A DNA stretch of 35,016 bases from Crocinitomicaceae bacterium (GCA_002720375.1 PBIE01000001.1:14887-49902), one strand, 5' to 3'; counted from the first letter of the stretch, positions 7,272 through 25,860 are shown. Translations and numbers: made by a program. Notes: generated by a model from the letters alone, not told the origin.

Positions 7272-8318
7272 TCAATTTTCTTGTGTCTCGCGCTCGTCGA
7301 GTTCGGCGTCTATGAGGCGTTGCAAGCGTTCGAGTTCCTTTTCGCTTAATTTCCGCTTTTCTCGGCCACCAAACACAGAAACGCGCACGTACCGCTGGGG
7401 ATTGAGGTATAAATCGTTCAAAAGGAACTGCAATTCTTTATTGGTGGCCATCAGGCCTTCGTGCAGGCTGTCGCTTTTGAGGATTTTTCCGAGGCTGCCT
7501 TCTCCTGCATTGAGTCCTTCTAGAACGCGATTGAGTTCGGCAATGGACACGTCCGCCCTGCGAAGGGTAGAGGCCAGTTGGAGGTTAGCAAGGGAGTCCG
7601 AGATTTGGCTGAAGTTGCTCAAGGCGTTGGAGAGGTTTCCCTGTTGGTTGTTGATGAAGCCGGTGAGTTCTTCCATGTTGTTCACGATGCCGTGAAGTGC
7701 TTCTCGGTTTTCCTCAACAGTCATGTCCAGCGTTTGCGAAGTGCTTTCGAGGTTTTCCATGGTCCTTTGGATGCTTTCAAAGGCCTTGGGCAACCCTTGG
7801 GTTGCGCTGTCTTGGAAGACAGTTTGCAAGTTGAGGAGGATTTCATCGACTCCTGCGATTAGCTGATCAGTGCGCTGGCGCAGGGGAATCAACTCCTGCT
7901 TGACCGATTCGGCGATGCCCATTTCGATTTCCGAAGGAAGGGTGTCTCCGGTTTGGATGAGCGAAGAACTGCGTCCGGCAATCAGGTCAATGGCCTTGGT
8001 ACCGAACAGGTCATTGGATACGATGCGCGCCTTGGTGTCGTCAGGGAGTTGAAGTTTGGATTGTTCGATGAGGAAGGTGACATGCAGGGTTCCGTTTCCC
8101 CTTGCATCGAAGTCAATTCCCGATACTTGGCCGACTTTGAATCCATTGACCACGACAGGGTTGGAGACCGCAAGTCCATCAATTCGATCGTACACAGCGT
8201 GGAACTCCCGGCCATGGCCTAGCGGGTTGAAGCCCTTCAGGTAGTTTACACCCAGCACAAGCAAAACCCCGCCCATCAGGACGAGCACTCCAATTTTGAT
8301 TTCCCTGCTTTTCTGCAT
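7272..8318 (-). CDS. MCE/MlaD family protein
   Basis: Single N-terminal TM (IKIGVLVLMGGVLLVLGVNYLKG), MCE domain (FHAVYDRIDGLAVSNPVVVNGFKVGQVSGIDF), long coiled-coil-like C-terminus. Confidence 0.93.
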   Translation of the reverse strand: MQKSREIKIGVLVLMGGVLLVLGVNYLKGFNPLGHGREFHAVYDRIDGLAVSNPVVVNGFKVGQVSGIDFDARGNGTLHVTFLIEQSKLQLPDDTKARIVSNDLFGTKAIDLIAGRSSSLIQTGDTLPSEIEMGIAESVKQELIPLRQRTDQLIAGVDEILLNLQTVFQDSATQGLPKAFESIQRTMENLESTSQTLDMTVEENREALHGIVNNMEELTGFINNQQGNLSNALSNFSQISDSLANLQLASTLRRADVSIAELNRVLEGLNAGEGSLGKILKSDSLHEGLMATNKELQFLLNDLYLNPQRYVRVSVFGGREKRKLSEKELERLQRLIDAELDERETQEN

Positions 8319-8331
8319 GCGATATGAGGGG

Positions 8332-9579
8332 TCAGTCCTTGGCCTTTTTCAGCGCGGATTCGAGGGGAATTCTGAGTCCGTTCTCGAATGCAATGACAAA
8401 AGCGTCCGGAAAGCCGTTCTTCCGCAAGGTATCGCGCATCAGGCAGGCTTCCGAATAAGAAGACGTAGACCCGACCCGGTACTTGTAAACGTTGCCAATC
8501 TGTTGTTGCGACGTATGTGGCACTTGGAAGCCACCTGGTCCGGTCAAAGGGGCGCCGCGTCGATTGCTTGCTGCTTGCACTGAAAAACAGAAGTCGCCAT
8601 TGCAAGTCGAGGCAATGGATGTGTGCCACATAGGCTGTCTTTTTGTCTCAGGGTTTGTGTCCTGCGTGCCTCTCCTTGTCTCTTCGGTTTCTTTTTTGTC
8701 CGTGGTTTTTTCATTCGCCTCTTGAACTTCGGCTTCTAGACTGAACCACCGCTGGGAATAGTCCCGGAAGGCACGAAAGAGGGCGCTGGACATGTAGTCT
8801 TGTCCTAAATCTGAGTGCAGGAAGTCCTCTTCTTTTGGATTGGTAAGGAATCCGAGTTCAACCAGCACGCTGGGCATACTGGCATAGGCGGTGACGTAGT
8901 AGGGAGCTTGGCGCACACCGCGGTCTTTCCTGCCAACGCGTTGCCTGAATTGGGTTTGAATTAGCTCGGCCAATTGCAGGCTTCGTCCGAGGTAAATTTC
9001 CTGTTTCAGCGCGAGGGCGATGAAAGTGTCTGGGTCATCGGGGTCAAATCCCTCTGCATCTTTTTCGTTGAAAACGGCCGCATTTTCCTTTGCAGCAACC
9101 CTCAGACTGGCTTCGCTTTTGTCTAGTCCCATTACAAACGTTGAAGTGCCTGTAACCGAGGATTTTTCGAAGCTGTCGCAGTGAATGGAAAGGAGAAGGT
9201 CCGCCTGTGACTCATTGGCAGTTCGAACCCGTTCGGAGAGCGTGGGGTAGGTGTCTCCAGTTCGCGTCATGATGACTTGCACGCCTGGGATTCGTTCTTC
9301 GATGTAGGCTGCTGTTTTGCGGGCTACTGCGAGGGTGATGTCCTTTTCAGATGTCCGGTAGCGGCCAGTTCCTAAATTTCCGGGGTCTTTACCGCCATGC
9401 CCTGCGTCGATTACGACCGTCATGGCCGGCTCTTTTGGGGGGTGAAATGCGCTGCCCAAAAGCAGGACGAGGGTGCAGATGAGGAGGACCGCTGATTTTG
9501 GCCAATATGTAGGGGTCGAGAGGCCGTTTGGACTGCCTGAATTTGGGGTTATGGAAAGGCTGAAATCTTGAGGTGCCAT
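8332..9579 (-). CDS. N-acetylmuramoyl-L-alanine amidase (Amidase_3) with C-terminal SPOR-like region
   Basis: VVIDAGHGGKDPGN, IMTRTGDTYPTLSERVRTAN, LLLSIHCDSF, VLVELGFLTNPKEEDFL. C-terminal YKYRVGSTSSYSEACLMRDTLRKNGFPDAFVIAF is SPOR-like. Start placed at ATG 9579 (MAPQDFSLS). Confidence 0.92.
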   Translation of the reverse strand: MAPQDFSLSITPNSGSPNGLSTPTYWPKSAVLLICTLVLLLGSAFHPPKEPAMTVVIDAGHGGKDPGNLGTGRYRTSEKDITLAVARKTAAYIEERIPGVQVIMTRTGDTYPTLSERVRTANESQADLLLSIHCDSFEKSSVTGTSTFVMGLDKSEASLRVAAKENAAVFNEKDAEGFDPDDPDTFIALALKQEIYLGRSLQLAELIQTQFRQRVGRKDRGVRQAPYYVTAYASMPSVLVELGFLTNPKEEDFLHSDLGQDYMSSALFRAFRDYSQRWFSLEAEVQEANEKTTDKKETEETRRGTQDTNPETKRQPMWHTSIASTCNGDFCFSVQAASNRRGAPLTGPGGFQVPHTSQQQIGNVYKYRVGSTSSYSEACLMRDTLRKNGFPDAFVIAFENGLRIPLESALKKAKD

Positions 9580-9702
9580 TCGAGGAGTGAAACTATCTAG
9601 CTTTGACGGGTATCCGGGCCCGGGTGTGTCTGGAATTTTCGCCGCCCGTTGTTGGCAAACCAGACTGCATACCGACAGGACGAATTCCACGTTGATGCCT
9701 AC

Positions 9703-12700
9703 ATGGACAACGCGACCTGGCGCGTGTTTCTTTTGTGGGCCTTCGTCGCTCTTCCCTGTTTCGCCTTGGCCCAGTCCATTGAGGTGGAGATTTTGCATGC
9801 GCAAGAGGTCAGCAGAGACCCCTCCATTGTTGAGGCGCAGCGGTTGATTGGTGATGTGGCATTGATGGCGGGGGATGCAGAGGTGGTCTGCGACAGTGCG
9901 TGGCGGTTTCCAGCTGGTCGTTTTCGCCTCATGGGCGGGGTGGAGGCCGTCGACGGCCTCGCGGTTTTGACAGGAGATGTTCTCGAGTTGTTTCCAGACA
10001 GCGGCATTGGTCGTATGACGGGCCGTATCGTGCGCCTTGTGGACTCAACTGATCCGTTGGAGCCAAGAACCTTGACGACTCAACGCGCCACGTACAATTT
10101 CCGTTCTGGGGTCGCCCGATTCTTCCATGAAGGGGTGGTGACCACAGCTTCGGAACGAATTGAAAGCCGTTCCGGTTGGTATGACCGAAAAGCGGGCGCC
10201 ATGGGGTTCGATGGCCATGTAGTGATGACGTTGGACACTGTGCAAGTGCGATCGGAAAAGGTCCGGTATTGGCCAGAGGACCGCAGACTTGATTTGTTAT
10301 CCGCGGCGGAGGTGTCTCATCCTTCAGGGGGAATCCTCTGCTCCGAGGGCCAATGGACCATGGGGTCCCAAGTGGGATGGTTCATCGGAGGTGATTCGGC
10401 CCAAGCCCGGTTCATTGATGGCGCCCTTGTGGTGCTTGCGGACAGCCTAGCGATGGCAGACTCTCTGGGTTATGCTTATGGAAATGTGGCCCTTCGCGAT
10501 ACAGCCACGACCTACAGACTCGAAGCGGATACGCTCCGTTTTGATCGCGCCGATGAGGATGGCCTTGGCGGGTCCAATGTGGCGATGAATGGAAGGGCTG
10601 TGGCCCACTTGTACGAAGGAGGTGATCCTTTGCGGGTGTCGGCACCAATGATGGACATCGAGGACAATATCGATGGTCGGTTTCTCCGAGCGCATTCAGG
10701 TGCGGCACTGCACTTTGGGGAAGTCACGGCAGCTGCACAAGACTTGATTTGGTCGGAAGAGGCCGGGCGGTTGGACTTGGACGGCAGTCCAGTCTTGTGG
10801 AATGGAACAGATCAGTTGACGGGAGATTCTGTGCGTCTGTTCTTGTCTGCAGGGAATCCCGAACGTCTGGAAGTCAGGCGGCACGCTTTTGTTGTCAGTC
10901 CAGCTGGGCGGGGGTTCTACAATCAAATGGCGGGGCGGAATCTGGATGGTATTTTCCGCGATGGTCGTCTGGAGAATTTGGTCATGCTGGGCAACGGCAG
11001 AACCCTTTACTTCGCGGAGCCAGACACAGCATCTGAGCGGCAGGCGAGTACAGACAGTTTACCTGCCCTTTTGCCTCAGGCGAACCGAGCGGCTTGCACA
11101 GAAATTAGGATGGCACTGGATACAGCAGGCTTGTCGTCCATTGCACTTTTCTCTTCGCCCTCTGGCCGATTTTCGGACCTCGCATCCTTAGAAGATGCGC
11201 CATTGGAAGGGGCGTCTGATGCGGCTCACTTGCCGGGGTTCAACCTGCGGAGCCGACCTGATTCGGCGATAAGGGGTGAGCAGCCGATGTTTGCGGCCGT
11301 GCTGCCCGTTGTGGAATGGACCGCTCCCCCGGATTCCCTCCGTCCTGAGGGTGAAGAGCCTATCGTCTATTCTGCTGCGGACAGCATCATTTTTTATGTG
11401 CGTGAGGAGCAGGTTGCCCTGCATGGGGAGGCGAAGGTGGAGACAGCAGGCATTGAATTGACGGCGGCCGAGGTTGACTACTTTGCTGGGGACCGTGTCA
11501 TTGAAGCCTCTGGTGTCGCAGACAGCACGGGTGCACTACAGGGAAAGCCGGTGTTCACTCAGGGGGGGAAATCTTTTACGCAGGTGGGGCTCCGTTATGA
11601 TTTGGACAGCCGCAAAGGAATGAGTCGCCAAGCTGTTACCAAGGAAGGTGAGCTTACGTTTCATGCCGATCGGGCCAAGCGTTATCCAGATGGGCGAATT
11701 TTCTTGCGAGGGGGAATGTTCAGCACTTGCGATGCAGAACGCCCCCACTTTCACTTTCACCTGACCAAGGGTTTGCTCATTCCGGACGAGAAGGTGATCA
11801 GTGGTCCCATGTATGTCAAAGTGCGCAAGATTCCCTTGCCGATTGGCCTTCCGTTTTTTTGGTTCCCTCAAAAACAGGAGCGCAGTCGCGGTTTGATTTT
11901 CCCCAGTTTTGGCAACGGGCGTGATCTGGGGTACTTCATCAAGGACCTCGGTTGGTATGAACCGCTTGGTGAACATTGGGACGCCAGGGTCCAGGGCGAT
12001 TTGTACAGTAGGGGAACGTGGCGCTTGGCCGGCACGGCTCAGTACCGGTATCGCTATCGGTTCAATGGTAATTTGCAGGTTTCGCGCTCGAGCATAGTTT
12101 CAGGTGGAACAGCGGGTGACCCTGGCGCGACGCGACGGACCGAGTTTTTTGTGCGCTGGAGTCACAATCAGGATTCCAAAGCGAGGCCAAATGGGCGATT
12201 CAACGCCAATGTTAACTTCGGCTCAAGCGGCAACTTCCGTTCCCAACTCAACAGTTCTCAGGAGGACTTTCTCTCGAACTCATTCTCCTCGAGCATTAAT
12301 TACAATGCCTCTATTCCCGGTAAACCCATCAGCATCACAGCAACGGCTAGACACAACCAGAACAGCAACACTAACCGAGTTGACTTGGTGGTTCCCTCTT
12401 TGGGTATCAATGTGAGTCGTTTTGAATTGCCTTTGTCTAGGTTGATTAATCCAGACGCGGTGTCGCGAAAGTGGTACGACCGAATCGGAGTGACCTATGC
12501 CTTGAAGTCTGAACAAAAAATCAGTGGCCCGGACAGCACGCTATTTGAAGACGGGATTGGGGGGCTGATCGAGCGGGCCACTGCTGGTGTTCGGCATACG
12601 GCAACGGCCTCGACACAGATAAAGGCAGGCTTCATCAGTTTCACGCCCAACGTGTCTTACAACGGATACTGGAACTTTGCAGCCTTGGACAAGACGGTCA

Positions 12701-13668
12701 GTCTGGATGTGCCTGACAGTGTGGTAACCGATACTCTCAGAGGTTTGTACGCCGATGGAGACTGGAGATTGGGCGTCAGCGCAAACACCAAATTTTATGG
12801 AACGCTGAACAATAGAGGTGATGGGCGCCTTCGCGCCATTCGTCACGTCATCACCCCGCAAGTGGGCTTTAGTTACAACCCTGCGTTTCAGCGGAGGGAC
12901 ACGGTTGTGGGCATCGATGGTAGCATCCTCGAGGTTTATGACCCTTTGGCGCCCGGGCTTTATACGCCCGGTGAAATTGGAGCGCAAGGGTCGCTGAACT
13001 TCACATTGAACAACAATCTCGAGGTAAAAATTCGAGACCGGGAAGGTGAGATTCAAAAAGTTAGAATCATCGACAATCTGTCGTTGCGTGCCAACCATAA
13101 CCTTCAGGCGGACTCCCTTCGGTGGAGTGACATCAGTGGATCTGCTTTTACTACGCTGGCTGGGCGGTTTCCGGTCAATCTCGGGTTTTCGCACAGCCTG
13201 TATGACAGGGATTCCACGGGGGCAACGGTGGATCGGTTCTTATGGGCTCAAGGGAAGTCTCCTTTGCGCCTCAAGCGTATGAATGCCTCGGTAAATGGAA
13301 GCTGGAGTGGAAAAGGGGAGATGCCCTGGAACATCCGAGCTGGATACACACTTCGTCTTCAGCGGAATTGGAGGGACGACCTGCAGGCTGATACGACCAT
13401 TTTGAGTCAAAATTTGACGGTCAGCGGAAACGTCACGCTTTTCGAAGATTGGCGTGTCACTATTGGGTCAGGTTATGATTTCACTTCAAGGGATTTCACC
13501 AACACTCAAGTGAACCTCTTGTGGGATTTGCACTGCTGGGAATTCTCCGCGCGTTGGGTCCCTTTTGGTATTCAACAAAGCCTGCAACTTCGCTTGGCCG
13601 TCAAGGCGTCGATGTTGCGGGATGTGAAGGTTGAAAAGCGCTTTCAGGGGGCTGGCCTTATTCGCTAA
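9703..13668 (+). CDS. lptD: LPS assembly protein LptD with an N-terminal OstA-like (LptA-type) domain fused in the same ORF
   Basis: Signal peptide MDNATWRVFLLWAFVALPCFALAQS. N-terminal half: AQRLIGDVALMAGDAEVVCDSAWRF... GSPVLWNGTDQLTGDSVRLFL (OstA-like). C-terminal half: DSIIFYVREEQVALHGEAKVETAGIELTAAEVDYF..., VRKIPLPIGLPFFWFPQKQERSRGLIFPSFGNGRDLGYFI (LptD barrel). Confidence 0.88.
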   Translation: MDNATWRVFLLWAFVALPCFALAQSIEVEILHAQEVSRDPSIVEAQRLIGDVALMAGDAEVVCDSAWRFPAGRFRLMGGVEAVDGLAVLTGDVLELFPDSGIGRMTGRIVRLVDSTDPLEPRTLTTQRATYNFRSGVARFFHEGVVTTASERIESRSGWYDRKAGAMGFDGHVVMTLDTVQVRSEKVRYWPEDRRLDLLSAAEVSHPSGGILCSEGQWTMGSQVGWFIGGDSAQARFIDGALVVLADSLAMADSLGYAYGNVALRDTATTYRLEADTLRFDRADEDGLGGSNVAMNGRAVAHLYEGGDPLRVSAPMMDIEDNIDGRFLRAHSGAALHFGEVTAAAQDLIWSEEAGRLDLDGSPVLWNGTDQLTGDSVRLFLSAGNPERLEVRRHAFVVSPAGRGFYNQMAGRNLDGIFRDGRLENLVMLGNGRTLYFAEPDTASERQASTDSLPALLPQANRAACTEIRMALDTAGLSSIALFSSPSGRFSDLASLEDAPLEGASDAAHLPGFNLRSRPDSAIRGEQPMFAAVLPVVEWTAPPDSLRPEGEEPIVYSAADSIIFYVREEQVALHGEAKVETAGIELTAAEVDYFAGDRVIEASGVADSTGALQGKPVFTQGGKSFTQVGLRYDLDSRKGMSRQAVTKEGELTFHADRAKRYPDGRIFLRGGMFSTCDAERPHFHFHLTKGLLIPDEKVISGPMYVKVRKIPLPIGLPFFWFPQKQERSRGLIFPSFGNGRDLGYFIKDLGWYEPLGEHWDARVQGDLYSRGTWRLAGTAQYRYRYRFNGNLQVSRSSIVSGGTAGDPGATRRTEFFVRWSHNQDSKARPNGRFNANVNFGSSGNFRSQLNSSQEDFLSNSFSSSINYNASIPGKPISITATARHNQNSNTNRVDLVVPSLGINVSRFELPLSRLINPDAVSRKWYDRIGVTYALKSEQKISGPDSTLFEDGIGGLIERATAGVRHTATASTQIKAGFISFTPNVSYNGYWNFAALDKTVSLDVPDSVVTDTLRGLYADGDWRLGVSANTKFYGTLNNRGDGRLRAIRHVITPQVGFSYNPAFQRRDTVVGIDGSILEVYDPLAPGLYTPGEIGAQGSLNFTLNNNLEVKIRDREGEIQKVRIIDNLSLRANHNLQADSLRWSDISGSAFTTLAGRFPVNLGFSHSLYDRDSTGATVDRFLWAQGKSPLRLKRMNASVNGSWSGKGEMPWNIRAGYTLRLQRNWRDDLQADTTILSQNLTVSGNVTLFEDWRVTIGSGYDFTSRDFTNTQVNLLWDLHCWEFSARWVPFGIQQSLQLRLAVKASMLRDVKVEKRFQGAGLIR

Positions 13669-14893: not shown

Positions 14894-15466
14894 TCAGTTT
14901 CCGAGCTTCTCCATTTCCTCTTGGAAGGTTTCTTTAAAACGCTCATAGTTGTATTCGGCCATGATGCGCTCGTCCTCTGAGATTTTCTCGTTGTACTTGG
15001 AGGCAAACTTTTCGCCGCTCAATTCGAGTGCGACATAAGAGACATAGATGCCATTTTCTCGCTGTGTCAGCTTTTCGCAGATAACGATGGCACCTCGCAA
15101 CTCTTGGTCGACAACGGTTCTGGCCAGTTCGTTGAAGGACTCAGTGGCTTCTTCGCGGTTGTTGAACTCTGTGCTGGCCACGTAGTTGTCCGTGACGGCT
15201 TGAATGGTCGCGCTGACAGTACGGGCAATGCGACTTTCGGCAGTCGAGCGCGCTTTCTTTTTGGCGATCTCCCGGTCTTGGCTTTCGCCGGTTGCGGTGG
15301 AGCGGAAGTGCTTGCTGTCGCTGTTGTATTTGTCGCCGGTGCAGAATTCAAAGATTTCGATTTCGCCTTTTGGCTTGACGACATCTTGTTTCTTGTTGCA
15401 GCTGGTCGTGATGACGGCCAGGCCGAGGACCAGGCCCGTCGTGGTGAGGAATGCAGTACGGGTCAT
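14894..15466 (-). CDS. Lipoprotein, LPP20-like
   Basis: Type II signal peptide with lipobox (LAVITTSC). Body EIAKKKARSTAESRIARTVSATIQAVTDNYV resembles LPP20-like proteins. Confidence 0.7.
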   Translation of the reverse strand: MTRTAFLTTTGLVLGLAVITTSCNKKQDVVKPKGEIEIFEFCTGDKYNSDSKHFRSTATGESQDREIAKKKARSTAESRIARTVSATIQAVTDNYVASTEFNNREEATESFNELARTVVDQELRGAIVICEKLTQRENGIYVSYVALELSGEKFASKYNEKISEDERIMAEYNYERFKETFQEEMEKLGN

Positions 15467-15519
15467 AGTGGTGTGTTTTTGTATTTGATGAGGTTAAGGC
15501 CAATATCGTGCCAAAGTGT

Positions 15520-16893
15520 TCAACGGAGGGCACGAATCAGATTGTTTGCGTGTTTTTCTCGGATGCTTTCCGCCAGATTCGACAGGGCGAGATTGAGGGC
15601 CGTTGAGGGGTCGAGTTGGACGCCCTTGACACGGTCGAGGACAATTTGGTGCACGATGTCTCCTCCCGTTTTTCGCAGGACCAATCCGCCTTCGACATAT
15701 GCAGTGTGGAAGTTGCCCAGTTCGCCGCTGGGGCGTCTGGTTTCTGAGCGGAGTTCAACGGTGAGGCTGAAGTCGCTGTATGCTCCATTGTCTAGGATTT
15801 TGAATCCGGCATCGAGAAGCACGGAGCGCAGCACAGTGATGGTGCTGGAGTGGGCTTCAACCCCGAGTTGGGAGTTGGGAGCAGGACGGATTTGGACAGT
15901 GGGCATTTCCACTTCAATGGGCAGAGAGATCGAATTGACATGGATGTCACCTAGCAATTCGATTAAGACTGAATTCAGTCCTGCTGCCTTGAACAGGCGT
16001 TCCAGATCCAATGTGCAGTTCAGGTTGACATCGGGTCTTTTTGGGGCGACACCTTGGATGTTGGCCACCACCGTGCCCTCCTCGTCGGTGAACTCGGTGG
16101 CCTGTTTCAGGTAGGTGCCGTTGTGGTAGCGGTATTGTAGGGGAAGGCCCATTGCATTTACACCCTCATGCGTGGCATGGAGGCCGAGGGGGAACTTGAA
16201 GTCTCCTTCCGCATTGAGTAAGACTGCGTCCACTGCTGCGCGAAGATGGATGTTGCGCGCGGATTCCCTCATGGTCCTGAGAATGTGAGGCTCCAAACTA
16301 ACTTCTTCACCCCCAATTTGGGCACGGTTGACCTCATTCCAGAATTCTTCCAATCCAAGAATCGCAGTTCCCCAATGGTTCAGTGCACCTTGAAGGTTGC
16401 CCTTGTCCATGTCTGTCCTTCCGGCCTCGTATTCCAGCAATGCCAGATCGATGGCGTCTTGTTTTCGGGCATTGCGTTCTGCCGCATAGCGCGCCTTGTC
16501 CAGTCGGTAGTAGACGAATGCCCCTCGGGGACCTTCCCAAACATCTACGACTTGAAATCCGGCGATTCTTTCTTCCGCACGGCTCGAAATGGTGCTGGTG
16601 AAATCTTGTTGAACCTGTCCATTTTTTTCCTCGCTCTCGAGCAGGGATGTGCTTTCCACCCGCAGGGCAATTTCGCCGACCAAATCTGCCGCAGCGCGTT
16701 CTTTTGCCGTTCGGAGGGCCTCTCCGGGTATTGGGTTTGGTGCAGCGCTGCCAATGCCGATATAGTGCATGCTGGATACAGGGCGCTCCGATACCCACCC
16801 GGGTGGGGGAGTATGCTCCATGCCCCTGCGGCCGGTGCAACCGGAGGCGAGTATGGCCATCGTCAGAATCAATATGTTGCTGTAAATCCTCAT
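15520..16893 (-). CDS. LPP20 family lipoprotein
   Basis: MRIYSNILILTMAILASGC lipobox. PGWVSERPVSSMHYIGIGSA...EALRTAKERAAADLVGEIALRVESTS pattern typical of LPP20. Overlaps the upstream gene by 4 nt. Confidence 0.78.
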   Translation of the reverse strand: MRIYSNILILTMAILASGCTGRRGMEHTPPPGWVSERPVSSMHYIGIGSAAPNPIPGEALRTAKERAAADLVGEIALRVESTSLLESEEKNGQVQQDFTSTISSRAEERIAGFQVVDVWEGPRGAFVYYRLDKARYAAERNARKQDAIDLALLEYEAGRTDMDKGNLQGALNHWGTAILGLEEFWNEVNRAQIGGEEVSLEPHILRTMRESARNIHLRAAVDAVLLNAEGDFKFPLGLHATHEGVNAMGLPLQYRYHNGTYLKQATEFTDEEGTVVANIQGVAPKRPDVNLNCTLDLERLFKAAGLNSVLIELLGDIHVNSISLPIEVEMPTVQIRPAPNSQLGVEAHSSTITVLRSVLLDAGFKILDNGAYSDFSLTVELRSETRRPSGELGNFHTAYVEGGLVLRKTGGDIVHQIVLDRVKGVQLDPSTALNLALSNLAESIREKHANNLIRALR

Positions 16894-18254
16894 TCGATGT
16901 GGCGTGAAAGGAACTGTTCGATGTCCCGTTGTCCTCGGGCAGTGGCTTCTTGGATCACTTGAGCCCGCAATGAGGCTTCGGTGGCAAGTTGGCGTCGGGC
17001 GTTGAGAAGTGCGGTCATGCGGTATTTTCCGCTGCGGTCTACTTCGCCGTTGGATCGGGATGGATACAGGCTGCCCGAATTCACTTGGCTCACGGCGTAT
17101 TCGACGGCGTCTTGCGCGTGGACTTGCTCGACTTCGGACAGCAACACCTCTCCAGTTTCCGTGCTGATTAGTTTGATTTCGAACTTGAGTAAAACACTGC
17201 GTCGCTGTGTGTGGAGCACATAGCGGGCGGGGGCATAGGCAGCGACCTTTTTGATGTTGCCTTCTTCGTCTTTGACATCCTTAAAGTATTTCCGGAATCC
17301 TTGTCTGGTTGAGCTTAGAGGGTTTCCAGTTTCTGAAGAATAGGTGAGGATGGCACCAGAAAGTATGGCGCGCGCGCCTGCCAGTTCTCCAACAGCGACA
17401 CTTTCGTCTGAAATGCCTGAAAGCGACAACTCCTGCTCTGCGAGTATGTCTTCTCGGAGGGTGCGGTCAACCACACCCAGGAAGGGGTCCTTGGAATTGA
17501 GCAACCCGCGTTGGACTCCACTTCTCAACTCGAGGGCCACGTCCCGTTCCCTGTTGCGGGACTCGAAGTTGGTGACGGCAATGTTGAACCGGCCTGTTTG
17601 GAGGGCTTCAGTGTGAAGTTCGCTGGCATCCTTGTACGCTTTGTCCAAAGCGAGAACCAGGCCCAATGCTTGATGGGCCTCTCGGAACAGGCCCTGTTCC
17701 AATGCGGCTTTTCCCTTTCTGTATTCAGGTTCAGCCTGCGCCGCGGTCAGCAGCTCGGCGGCACCTTCATATTGGGGGTCGAGGCGCAAAATTTCTTTGA
17801 ACGTGGTTTCGGCCGCTGCGAATTGCTCTTTGTCGAGTTGCATGTGGCCGAGGTCGTTGAGTTCAATCAAGTGGTCGTCCACCAGATCGGCATGATCGGA
17901 TTCAACAGAGGCAGGGACATTGAGGGTCACGCCTACGGCTGCCACCGAGGCCTTAAATGCCGTCATCCGATCGTATTCCGCAATGGCATCTGCGCGGCGA
18001 CCAGCGAGGGCGGCGCGCTGAAATTCGCCGATGTGAATATCCAAAACGCCTTGCCCCGTCAATTTCAAGCCCACCATTGCGTCAACATATCCAGGCCGTT
18101 TGCGGAGTGCCATGGTGTAGAGGCTGGCCGCTTGCTCATTGAATCCCGCAGCGGAGAGCTCGCCAGCACGCTTGCTCATGGACTTCGGCCCATTGCAGGC
18201 GACGAGAATGAGAGCCAATCCAAACAGGGGGAGGAGGGGATGGAAGCGGACCAT
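16890..18254 (-). CDS. Lipoprotein with TPR-like N-terminus and CsgG-like domain
   Basis: Lipobox LILVAC. TPR-like helices (GFNEQAASLYTMALRKRPGYVDAM). CsgG-like RFNIAVTNFESRNRERDVALELRSGVQRGLLNSKDPFLGVVDRTLREDILAEQELSLSGISDE...GARAILSGAIL. Confidence 0.72.
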   Translation of the reverse strand: MVRFHPLLPLFGLALILVACNGPKSMSKRAGELSAAGFNEQAASLYTMALRKRPGYVDAMVGLKLTGQGVLDIHIGEFQRAALAGRRADAIAEYDRMTAFKASVAAVGVTLNVPASVESDHADLVDDHLIELNDLGHMQLDKEQFAAAETTFKEILRLDPQYEGAAELLTAAQAEPEYRKGKAALEQGLFREAHQALGLVLALDKAYKDASELHTEALQTGRFNIAVTNFESRNRERDVALELRSGVQRGLLNSKDPFLGVVDRTLREDILAEQELSLSGISDESVAVGELAGARAILSGAILTYSSETGNPLSSTRQGFRKYFKDVKDEEGNIKKVAAYAPARYVLHTQRRSVLLKFEIKLISTETGEVLLSEVEQVHAQDAVEYAVSQVNSGSLYPSRSNGEVDRSGKYRMTALLNARRQLATEASLRAQVIQEATARGQRDIEQFLSRHIE

Positions 18255-24195: not shown

Positions 24196-24879
24196 ATGTT
24201 CCAACAAGCCACGCCAGTCGTCCGCAATTTGTTGATCATCAACATCATCTTTTACGTGGTGACGCATTTTTTGGCACCAGAACTGAGGCCGATGTTGGCT
24301 GGTTATTACCCCAGTTCCCCCATGTTTCAGCCTTGGCAGGTGGTGACGCACATGTTCATGCATGCAGGAATGGGACACATCTTCTTCAATATGTTCGCTC
24401 TGTTCATGTTTGGGTCCCAGCTGGAGCGCGTGTGGGGACCAAAGCGCTTTCTGAACTATTATCTCGCCTGCGGCCTTGGGGCTTTTTTCCTTCACGAGAT
24501 TGTCGTGGGGTACGGTTATTACAGTGCGTACGGGACATGGTTCCCAACTGCTGAGGCTCTTTTTCCTAACCTGGGATACAGTGCTGCGGAGCGGGCAGCG
24601 TCGCGGTTGTTTGTGCCTGTCGTTGGGGCGTCTGGGGCTGTTTTTGGCTTGCTGCTCGGTTTTGGCATGCTCTTCCCCAATACGCGGTTGCAGTTGCTTT
24701 TTCCTCCTGTGCCAATCAAAGCCCGCTATTTCGTCCTTGGCTATGGCGCATTGGAGCTGATTTTGGCCTTGGATAACAATCCAGGTGACAATGTTGCGCA
24801 TTTTGCCCACCTCGGGGGGATGGTTTTCGGGTATTTGCTGCTGAAGAAATGGCAAAGGGATCGCGATGCATTTTATTGA
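24196..24879 (+). CDS. Rhomboid family intramembrane serine protease (first copy)
   Basis: VTHMFMHAGMGHIFFNMFALFMFG; catalytic-type GASGAVFG; HFAHLGGMVFGY. Confidence 0.93.
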   Translation: MFQQATPVVRNLLIINIIFYVVTHFLAPELRPMLAGYYPSSPMFQPWQVVTHMFMHAGMGHIFFNMFALFMFGSQLERVWGPKRFLNYYLACGLGAFFLHEIVVGYGYYSAYGTWFPTAEALFPNLGYSAAERAASRLFVPVVGASGAVFGLLLGFGMLFPNTRLQLLFPPVPIKARYFVLGYGALELILALDNNPGDNVAHFAHLGGMVFGYLLLKKWQRDRDAFY

Positions 24880-24906
24880 GGATTCTCGCGTTGAATCCCT
24901 GTTGAG

Positions 24907-25860
24907 ATGAGCAGTTTACAAGATGATTTGAAGATGAGGTGGACCACCGGCGGCATGGCGGTGAGGCTGGTCATGTTCAATGTGTTGGTTTTTTTGATTC
25001 TGACCACGTTGCGGTTGCTTTTGGGCATGGGGCTACCCTTGCCTGTTTTGCCCGGGGCTTTTGGGCTTGCCACCTCTGCAGACCTGTCAATTTTAGTGCG
25101 AAGGCCATGGAGCGCGGTGACCCACATGTTTGCCCATGAGGAGGTTTGGCACCTTGCGATGAACATGCTCATCCTGTGGTGGATGGGAGGGATGTTTAGG
25201 TCACATTTTGGCGACAGGCGCACGCTCAGTGCATACCTCATGGGAGGGGTGTCTGGGTTTCTATTGTACATCTTGGCCACGAACCTCGTTCCTTCTTTTC
25301 CTCAAGGTGGATATGCACTTGGTGCGTCATCTGCGGTGATGGCTTTGATGGTGGCCACGGCCACGCACATGCCAGACACGGTAATTCGCCTTTTCTTGAT
25401 TGGTCCGGTCAAGTTGAAATGGGTGGCTGTGGCGTATGTCGTGCTCGATTATGTGGCGCTATCGAACGGAAGCAATGTGGGGGGTCATCTTGGTCACATT
25501 GGAGGAGCTGCATACGGTTTTTTCTACATGCGGGGGCTACAGTCTAATCAGGACCTCGGTGTGCCCATGGAAGGGCTTGTTGATTGGTTGGTGACCACAT
25601 TTGGCCGATCATCGGGTTCTAGAACACAGATCAGGCAAAAGAAAACGCGCAGGAAGGGCAAAGGCTTGCACTCGGTGCATCGCAGTGTGGATGTCGATGG
25701 GAAGACCCGTCGGGGGCATACCGATGAAGAGTTCAATGCTGAGAAGAGGGCGCGGCAAGAGCGGATTGACCGCATCCTCGATAAAATCTCTAAGGTGGGT
25801 TATGACCAGCTTACCAAGGAGGAGAAGGACTTTCTCTTTCGCCACGGAGGGAACGTTTGA
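24907..25860 (+). CDS. Rhomboid family intramembrane serine protease (second copy) with basic C-terminal extension (DUF6576-like)
   Basis: VTHMFAHEEVWHLAMNMLILWWMGGMF; GASSAVMAL; GGHLGHIGGAAYGF. C-terminal KRARQERIDRILDKISKVGYDQLTKEEKDFLFRHG. Confidence 0.92.
   Translation: MSSLQDDLKMRWTTGGMAVRLVMFNVLVFLILTTLRLLLGMGLPLPVLPGAFGLATSADLSILVRRPWSAVTHMFAHEEVWHLAMNMLILWWMGGMFRSHFGDRRTLSAYLMGGVSGFLLYILATNLVPSFPQGGYALGASSAVMALMVATATHMPDTVIRLFLIGPVKLKWVAVAYVVLDYVALSNGSNVGGHLGHIGGAAYGFFYMRGLQSNQDLGVPMEGLVDWLVTTFGRSSGSRTQIRQKKTRRKGKGLHSVHRSVDVDGKTRRGHTDEEFNAEKRARQERIDRILDKISKVGYDQLTKEEKDFLFRHGGNV

Follow-up and report, generated by a model that had tools for sequence, protein, structure and literature searches.

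A genus-restricted fusion of an OstA-like protein to LptD in uncultured Flavobacteriales

The two proteins that carry LPS across the periplasm and through the outer membrane, an OstA-like (LptA-type) bridge protein and the translocon LptD, were expected to be separate polypeptides in Bacteroidota, so a single frame in the analysed window (35,016 nucleotides of DNA from a Crocinitomicaceae bacterium) that appears to encode both raises the question of whether they are naturally joined there. The reading frame is open from 9607 to 13668, with a TTG at 9649 as a possible alternative start; the exact start is placed provisionally at the ATG at 9703, since Val replaces the ATG-encoded Met in some orthologues, presumably from GTG. 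The gene, its parts and its conserved neighbours are listed below.

7272-8318, minus strand: MlaD-domain protein, conserved next neighbour at the amidase/LptD locus
8332-9804, minus strand: N-acetylmuramoyl-L-alanine amidase, divergent; start overestimated by the ORF caller, Amidase_3 from aa 130; LptD neighbour in sister genera
9703-13668, plus strand: fused OstA-like::LptD gene P0001, 1321 aa in one uninterrupted frame
9703-9774, plus strand: signal peptide, aa 1-24, ending in LPCFALAQ before S; read directly from the sequence, with a hydrophobic-window comparison
9775-11277, plus strand: putative OstA-like (LptA-type) periplasmic bridge region, aa 25-525; assigned by Pfam, alignment to free OstA-like proteins, and a structure model with Foldseek
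9781-10245, plus strand: OstA_2 domain (PF13100), aa 27-181
11278-11361, plus strand: linker between the OstA-like and LptD parts, aa 526-553, ~28 aa
11362-11793, plus strand: LptD N-terminal jelly-roll, aa 554-697, with PF03968 at aa 554-593
11728-11730, plus strand: Cys676, invariant in a 54-row LptD alignment
11794-13665, plus strand: LptD beta-barrel region, aa 698-1321, with PF19838 at aa 698-1167; the model's best PDB matches are all LptDE
13534-13536, plus strand: Cys1278 (DLHCWEF), invariant in the same alignment

The domain content of the frame was determined using hmmscan against Pfam, and OstA_2, LptD_N and LptD_2 were found along it in this order, all above their cutoffs (30.6 vs 21.2 bits, 22.7 vs 20.4 bits and 415.7 vs 22.5 bits, respectively), with LptD_N directly preceding the barrel. 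The TIGR03002 LptA equivalog remained below its curated cutoff (34 vs 71.7 bits), with its best stretch, aa 549-608, in the LptD_N region, and no PDB sequence was matched to the fused protein by phmmer. Using BLAST, free OstA-like proteins from other genera were aligned over aa ~25-500 (~475 residues, best E 1e-58) and free LptDs over aa ~551-1321; the alignments placed the boundary at about aa 526-553 (11278-11361), and the first strand of the LptD part begins at aa ~554 (IVYSAADSI), as is usual for LptD. The invariance of Cys676 and Cys1278 in the 54 LptD rows suggests an LptD-type disulfide, in which the two would be the paired residues. These results agree with the original prediction, which had described a single ORF of ~1321 aa with a signal peptide, OstA-type sequence in its N-terminal ~500 aa and a complete Bacteroidota LptD from about 11360.

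Structure models were then compared with the PDB. An AlphaFold2 model of aa 25-705 (63 sequences; m0600e15b1294) was nearly all beta, with a pLDDT of 92 and a pTM of 0.80, and its best Foldseek matches were LptDE (E 1.6e-11), LptA and LptC; the LptA chain 2r1a_F gave a target TM of 0.81 at an rmsd of 2.2 A and the LptC structure 3my2 a target TM of 0.80, each over a stretch within aa 25-705 that Foldseek does not specify. The model of aa 300-1321, which includes half of the bridge and the barrel (meb46df9471c0), had a moderate pLDDT of 79 and a weak pTM of 0.50, and its 15 best PDB matches were LptDE chains, with E values from 2e-25 to 2e-18. Of the continuous jelly-roll bridge leading into a barrel that had been anticipated, the all-beta bridge was therefore modelled with high confidence, whereas its joining to the barrel was modelled only weakly. 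The linker came out as coil at lower confidence (pLDDT ~71-87) and may be kinked. Its length and sequence differ between orthologues, from nearly no linker in the divergent L032 to a Ser/Thr/Pro-rich one in L133. A signal peptide of LptD's own was not recognised in the linker by the hydrophobic-window comparison of 12 fused proteins, the peak hydrophobic stretch of the linker being lower than that of the N-terminus in all 12, although nearly equal in L034; export of a separate LptD from an internal start is thus unlikely.

The integrity of the gene was assessed in its relatives. Eleven more full-length fused loci were read, in separate assemblies (L022-L025, L028 and L030-L035), and their proteins show 69-84% identity in 10 of the 11 and 48% in L032. 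The three Pfam families were above cutoff in five of the six orthologues scanned, OstA_2 and LptD_N being sub-cutoff in L032, and in G030 PF13100 missed the OstA part, which BLAST and an OstA profile both detected. Wherever the gene was intact in the sampled genomes of the genus, referred to here as g1, the OstA and LptD matches shared one frame of 1333-1365 aa. In both G073 and G089 a contig break within the OstA part places the OstA and LptD matches on different contigs, with OstA sequence still present at the start of the LptD contigs; a 729-aa fragment in G099 begins at the amidase junction, covers OstA and the linker, and extends into LptD. No split OstA/LptD arrangement was found in any g1 genome sampled. 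The dN/dS ratios, calculated by the Nei-Gojobori method and relying on L022-L023 as the least saturated pair, dS being saturated in the others, were 0.077 for OstA, 0.14 for the junction, 0.023 for LptD_N and 0.026 for the barrel. Purifying selection therefore acts on both halves and on the junction of the fused gene, and the barrel has changed more slowly than the OstA part (83-85% vs 52-57% identity to the more distant orthologues).

To place the fusion among Bacteroidota, a family sample of 101 genomes in 21 genera was surveyed together with order, phylum and class samples, ~590 Bacteroidota genomes in total, in which the family LptD and class matches were listed in full and the order and phylum matches as the best ~150 rows. 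The fusion is restricted to g1, one genus of uncultured Flavobacteriales, among these genomes. The 20 other genera of the family encode OstA-like in a frame of its own, mostly of 490-570 aa where complete, and LptD likewise in a separate frame. The longest LptD frame outside g1 among the matches listed has 1188 aa (G026), and those of the fully listed class sample have at most 1041 aa. The G026 frame was considered as an OstA fusion and rejected, the OstA-like gene there being a separate 514-aa ORF on another contig. A further LptD frame longer than usual, of 1101 aa, was observed at G386:C1:221382-222923, and G198, from another family, has two full LptD_2 matches with very unequal scores, on C147 and C12, reflecting a paralogue or contamination. 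Phylogenetically, the fused proteins are monophyletic with 100/100 support in the tree of the LptD part and in that of the OstA part alike, and the group nearest to them, g5+g10+g3+g14, has split genes. The deeper placement in the OstA tree is unsure because some OstA branches are long. The most economical interpretation is that the fusion arose once.

LptD is divergent to the amidase gene, followed by genes for the MlaD-domain protein, an Fe-S protein, a CCG protein and an SDR, and in g1 the fusion sits at this amidase/mlaD (lptD) locus. The free OstA-like gene adjoins purA, often with fur and spoT, in several other genera (L099, L101, L105, L106 and L108), and adjoins the trigger-factor gene instead in g5 and g10 (L097 and L103), so that the closest relatives of g1 differ among themselves in its place. 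Where purA is retained in g1, the frame after spoT-purA is another long one, ABC-transporter-like by eye, and OstA is absent there. Read from gene order, the OstA-like gene appears to have changed its place and joined lptD: it would have left its former neighbourhood and landed next to the amidase gene, immediately upstream of lptD, the two would have been joined in frame with the variable linker replacing LptD's own signal peptide, and the free OstA-like gene would have gone from the genus. The fur-purA-OstA group and mlaD-amidase-lptD are adjacent, with the genes still separate, in g9 (L105:6040-12536 in G008, and also L048), which shows that OstA-like and lptD can come to lie close together, although g9 is not the genus nearest to g1.

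Several side observations were made at and around these loci. The purA gene (PF00709, adenylosuccinate synthetase) was not found in 13 of the 17 g1 genomes, all but G010, G030, G093 and G099, including G041, G051 and G059 (97%, 94% and 93% complete, respectively), and was found in 14 of 14 control genomes; it was possibly lost or replaced in those g1 genomes. In the window, genes for an LPP20-type lipoprotein, a CsgG/TPR-like protein and a third, uncharacterised product (14894-15466) lie at 14894-18254 on the minus strand and are conserved near lptD in sister genera, and two tandem rhomboid-family genes follow mutL at 24196-25860.

A second OstA-like gene and the remaining Lpt components were searched for in the 17 g1 genomes. 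An OstA profile built from 22 OstA-like sequences and run at E <= 10 found the fused gene in 16 of them, with none in G459 (67% complete). Its only other matches in the 17 genomes were weak ones at LptC loci, so that it revealed no second OstA-like gene; these weak matches indicate that the search reaches distant superfamily members. The absence of a second copy rests on relatives that are up to 98% complete, as the window's own genome is 64.7% complete. Searching PF03968 over the g1 genomes gave, apart from the fused gene, three weak matches below threshold and one strong extra match, on contig C49 of G093. This contig, carrying a 175-aa LptA together with LptC (L120 and L136), was considered as a second system and rejected, its KdsD-like/lptC/lptA/lptB order being unlike the g1 LptC locus; read by eye, the lptC-lptA-lptB locus is probably alphaproteobacterial binning contamination. 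LptC was matched in all 17 genomes, below cutoff in G099, where one of the two matches is the fused gene, and LptF/G was also matched in all 17, so that the inner-membrane machine remains in g1. The natural fusion proposed at the outset is thus supported by its domain content, its genus-wide architecture, synteny, the loss of the free OstA-like gene and the retention of LptC and LptFG.

We consider it probable that this genus-wide natural fusion of an OstA-like bridge protein to the N-terminus of LptD works as a covalent bridge and translocon. The fused protein would be exported by Sec as one polypeptide, its barrel would be assembled in the outer membrane, and its two jelly-rolls, that of LptD and the long OstA-like one, would extend into the periplasm, where the far end of the OstA-like part would dock on LptC of the LptB2FGC exporter. 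LPS would then slide along a one-chain groove and need no transfer from a separate bridge protein to LptD. The order of the fusion, OstA-like before LptD, agrees with the LptC-LptA-LptD polarity, and a covalent link of bridge to translocon at a fixed 1:1 ratio, as had been suggested, is plausible with this correct polarity. LptA is about one third the length of the OstA-like part, and a single chain might thus reach across most of the periplasm as far as LptC. It is somewhat less probable, though still favoured, that one polypeptide replaces the non-covalent joint between bridge and translocon and may reach LptC, leaving one reversible joint, at LptC, and a bridge length set by the gene.

The main rival explanation is that proteolysis within the variable linker, once the preprotein has been exported, releases OstA-like and LptD as ordinary separate proteins, with the fusion only coupling their expression and export. 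The poor conservation of the linker in length and sequence between two conserved domains and its modelling as coil would suit such cutting, but L032 is still one frame almost without a linker, inspection of the aligned linkers by eye revealed no conserved cleavage motif, and the dN/dS of the junction is 0.09-0.21; we regard cutting as unlikely. Still less probable is a covalent OstA-like part that serves mainly the folding of LptD, or the coupling of its maturation to bridge formation, while LPS is transported via a further, unrecognised LptA-type protein. It draws on the function of OstA-like proteins in Bacteroidota being assigned by inference and on the role that bridge assembly plays in LptD maturation in E. 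coli, and is countered by the lack of any other OstA/LptA-type gene in the genus, bar the probable contaminant contig of G093.

The N-terminal region could also be an enlarged LptD N-terminal domain that arose by internal duplication rather than a captured OstA-like protein, as LptD_N and OstA-like belong to one jelly-roll superfamily and PF03968 falls in the OstA part in some orthologues and in the LptD part in others. This is very improbable: the alignment to free OstA-like proteins extends over ~475 residues with shared invariant residues, profile comparison shows no relation of the region to its own LptD_N, it is closer to free OstA-like than to any LptD_N, and no free OstA-like gene turned up in the g1 genomes searched. 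An artefact of assembly or gene calling that joined two frames has a negligible probability; the window's genome and the relatives read are metagenome assemblies according to their record titles, but many independent assemblies have the same frame, its junction is open and under purifying selection, and its flanks are conserved. Each of the three conditions named beforehand as refuting the fusion was checked and did not hold, as the N-terminal half is OstA-like, a second OstA-like gene was not found in the genus, and the frame recurs in independent assemblies. Collectively, the single OstA-like::LptD frame is confirmed, its reading as a genus-restricted natural fusion is supported at the gene level, and a new form of the Lpt machine is plausible at the protein level.

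If the chain stays covalent, its fixed form suggests that the LptD end of the bridge need not dissociate. In E. coli the number of LptA units in the bridge is not fixed by the gene, and both this number and the need for the bridge to separate at LptD are open questions; the fusion offers a natural test of how the LPS protein bridge is built and a one-chain unit for structure determination. Because fusion partners usually work together, it also supports the Bacteroidota OstA-like protein as the LptA equivalent, as its fold and family suggest. A literature search with most subscription papers and preprints outside its reach turned up no natural fusion of LptA or OstA to LptD, which is weak evidence of novelty.

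Compared with the known systems, the fusion resembles the free Bacteroidota OstA-like proteins (PF13100; L108 and L103) in homology, N-terminal signal peptide and fold class, and shares with them the invariant residues R23, L24, G26, D40, S41 and C441 (alignment A3 numbering); whereas the free protein ends with a stop at its own locus, the fusion runs on into LptD, at the lptD locus. With Bacteroidota LptD (PF19838 and PF03968; L098 and L104) it has in common the complete jelly-roll and barrel, the invariant Cys pair and the amidase/mlaD neighbourhood, but LptD's own signal peptide is missing and ~500 aa of OstA-like sequence precede the LptD part. The E. coli bridge is a head-to-tail stack of LptC, LptA and LptD, in which the C-terminal edge of LptA lies against the N-terminal edge of LptD. 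LptA and LptD are separate chains there, in non-covalent contact, whereas in the fusion their counterparts are joined covalently; in both, LptA-type jelly-rolls are followed by that of LptD, in what is expected to be a head-to-tail arrangement.
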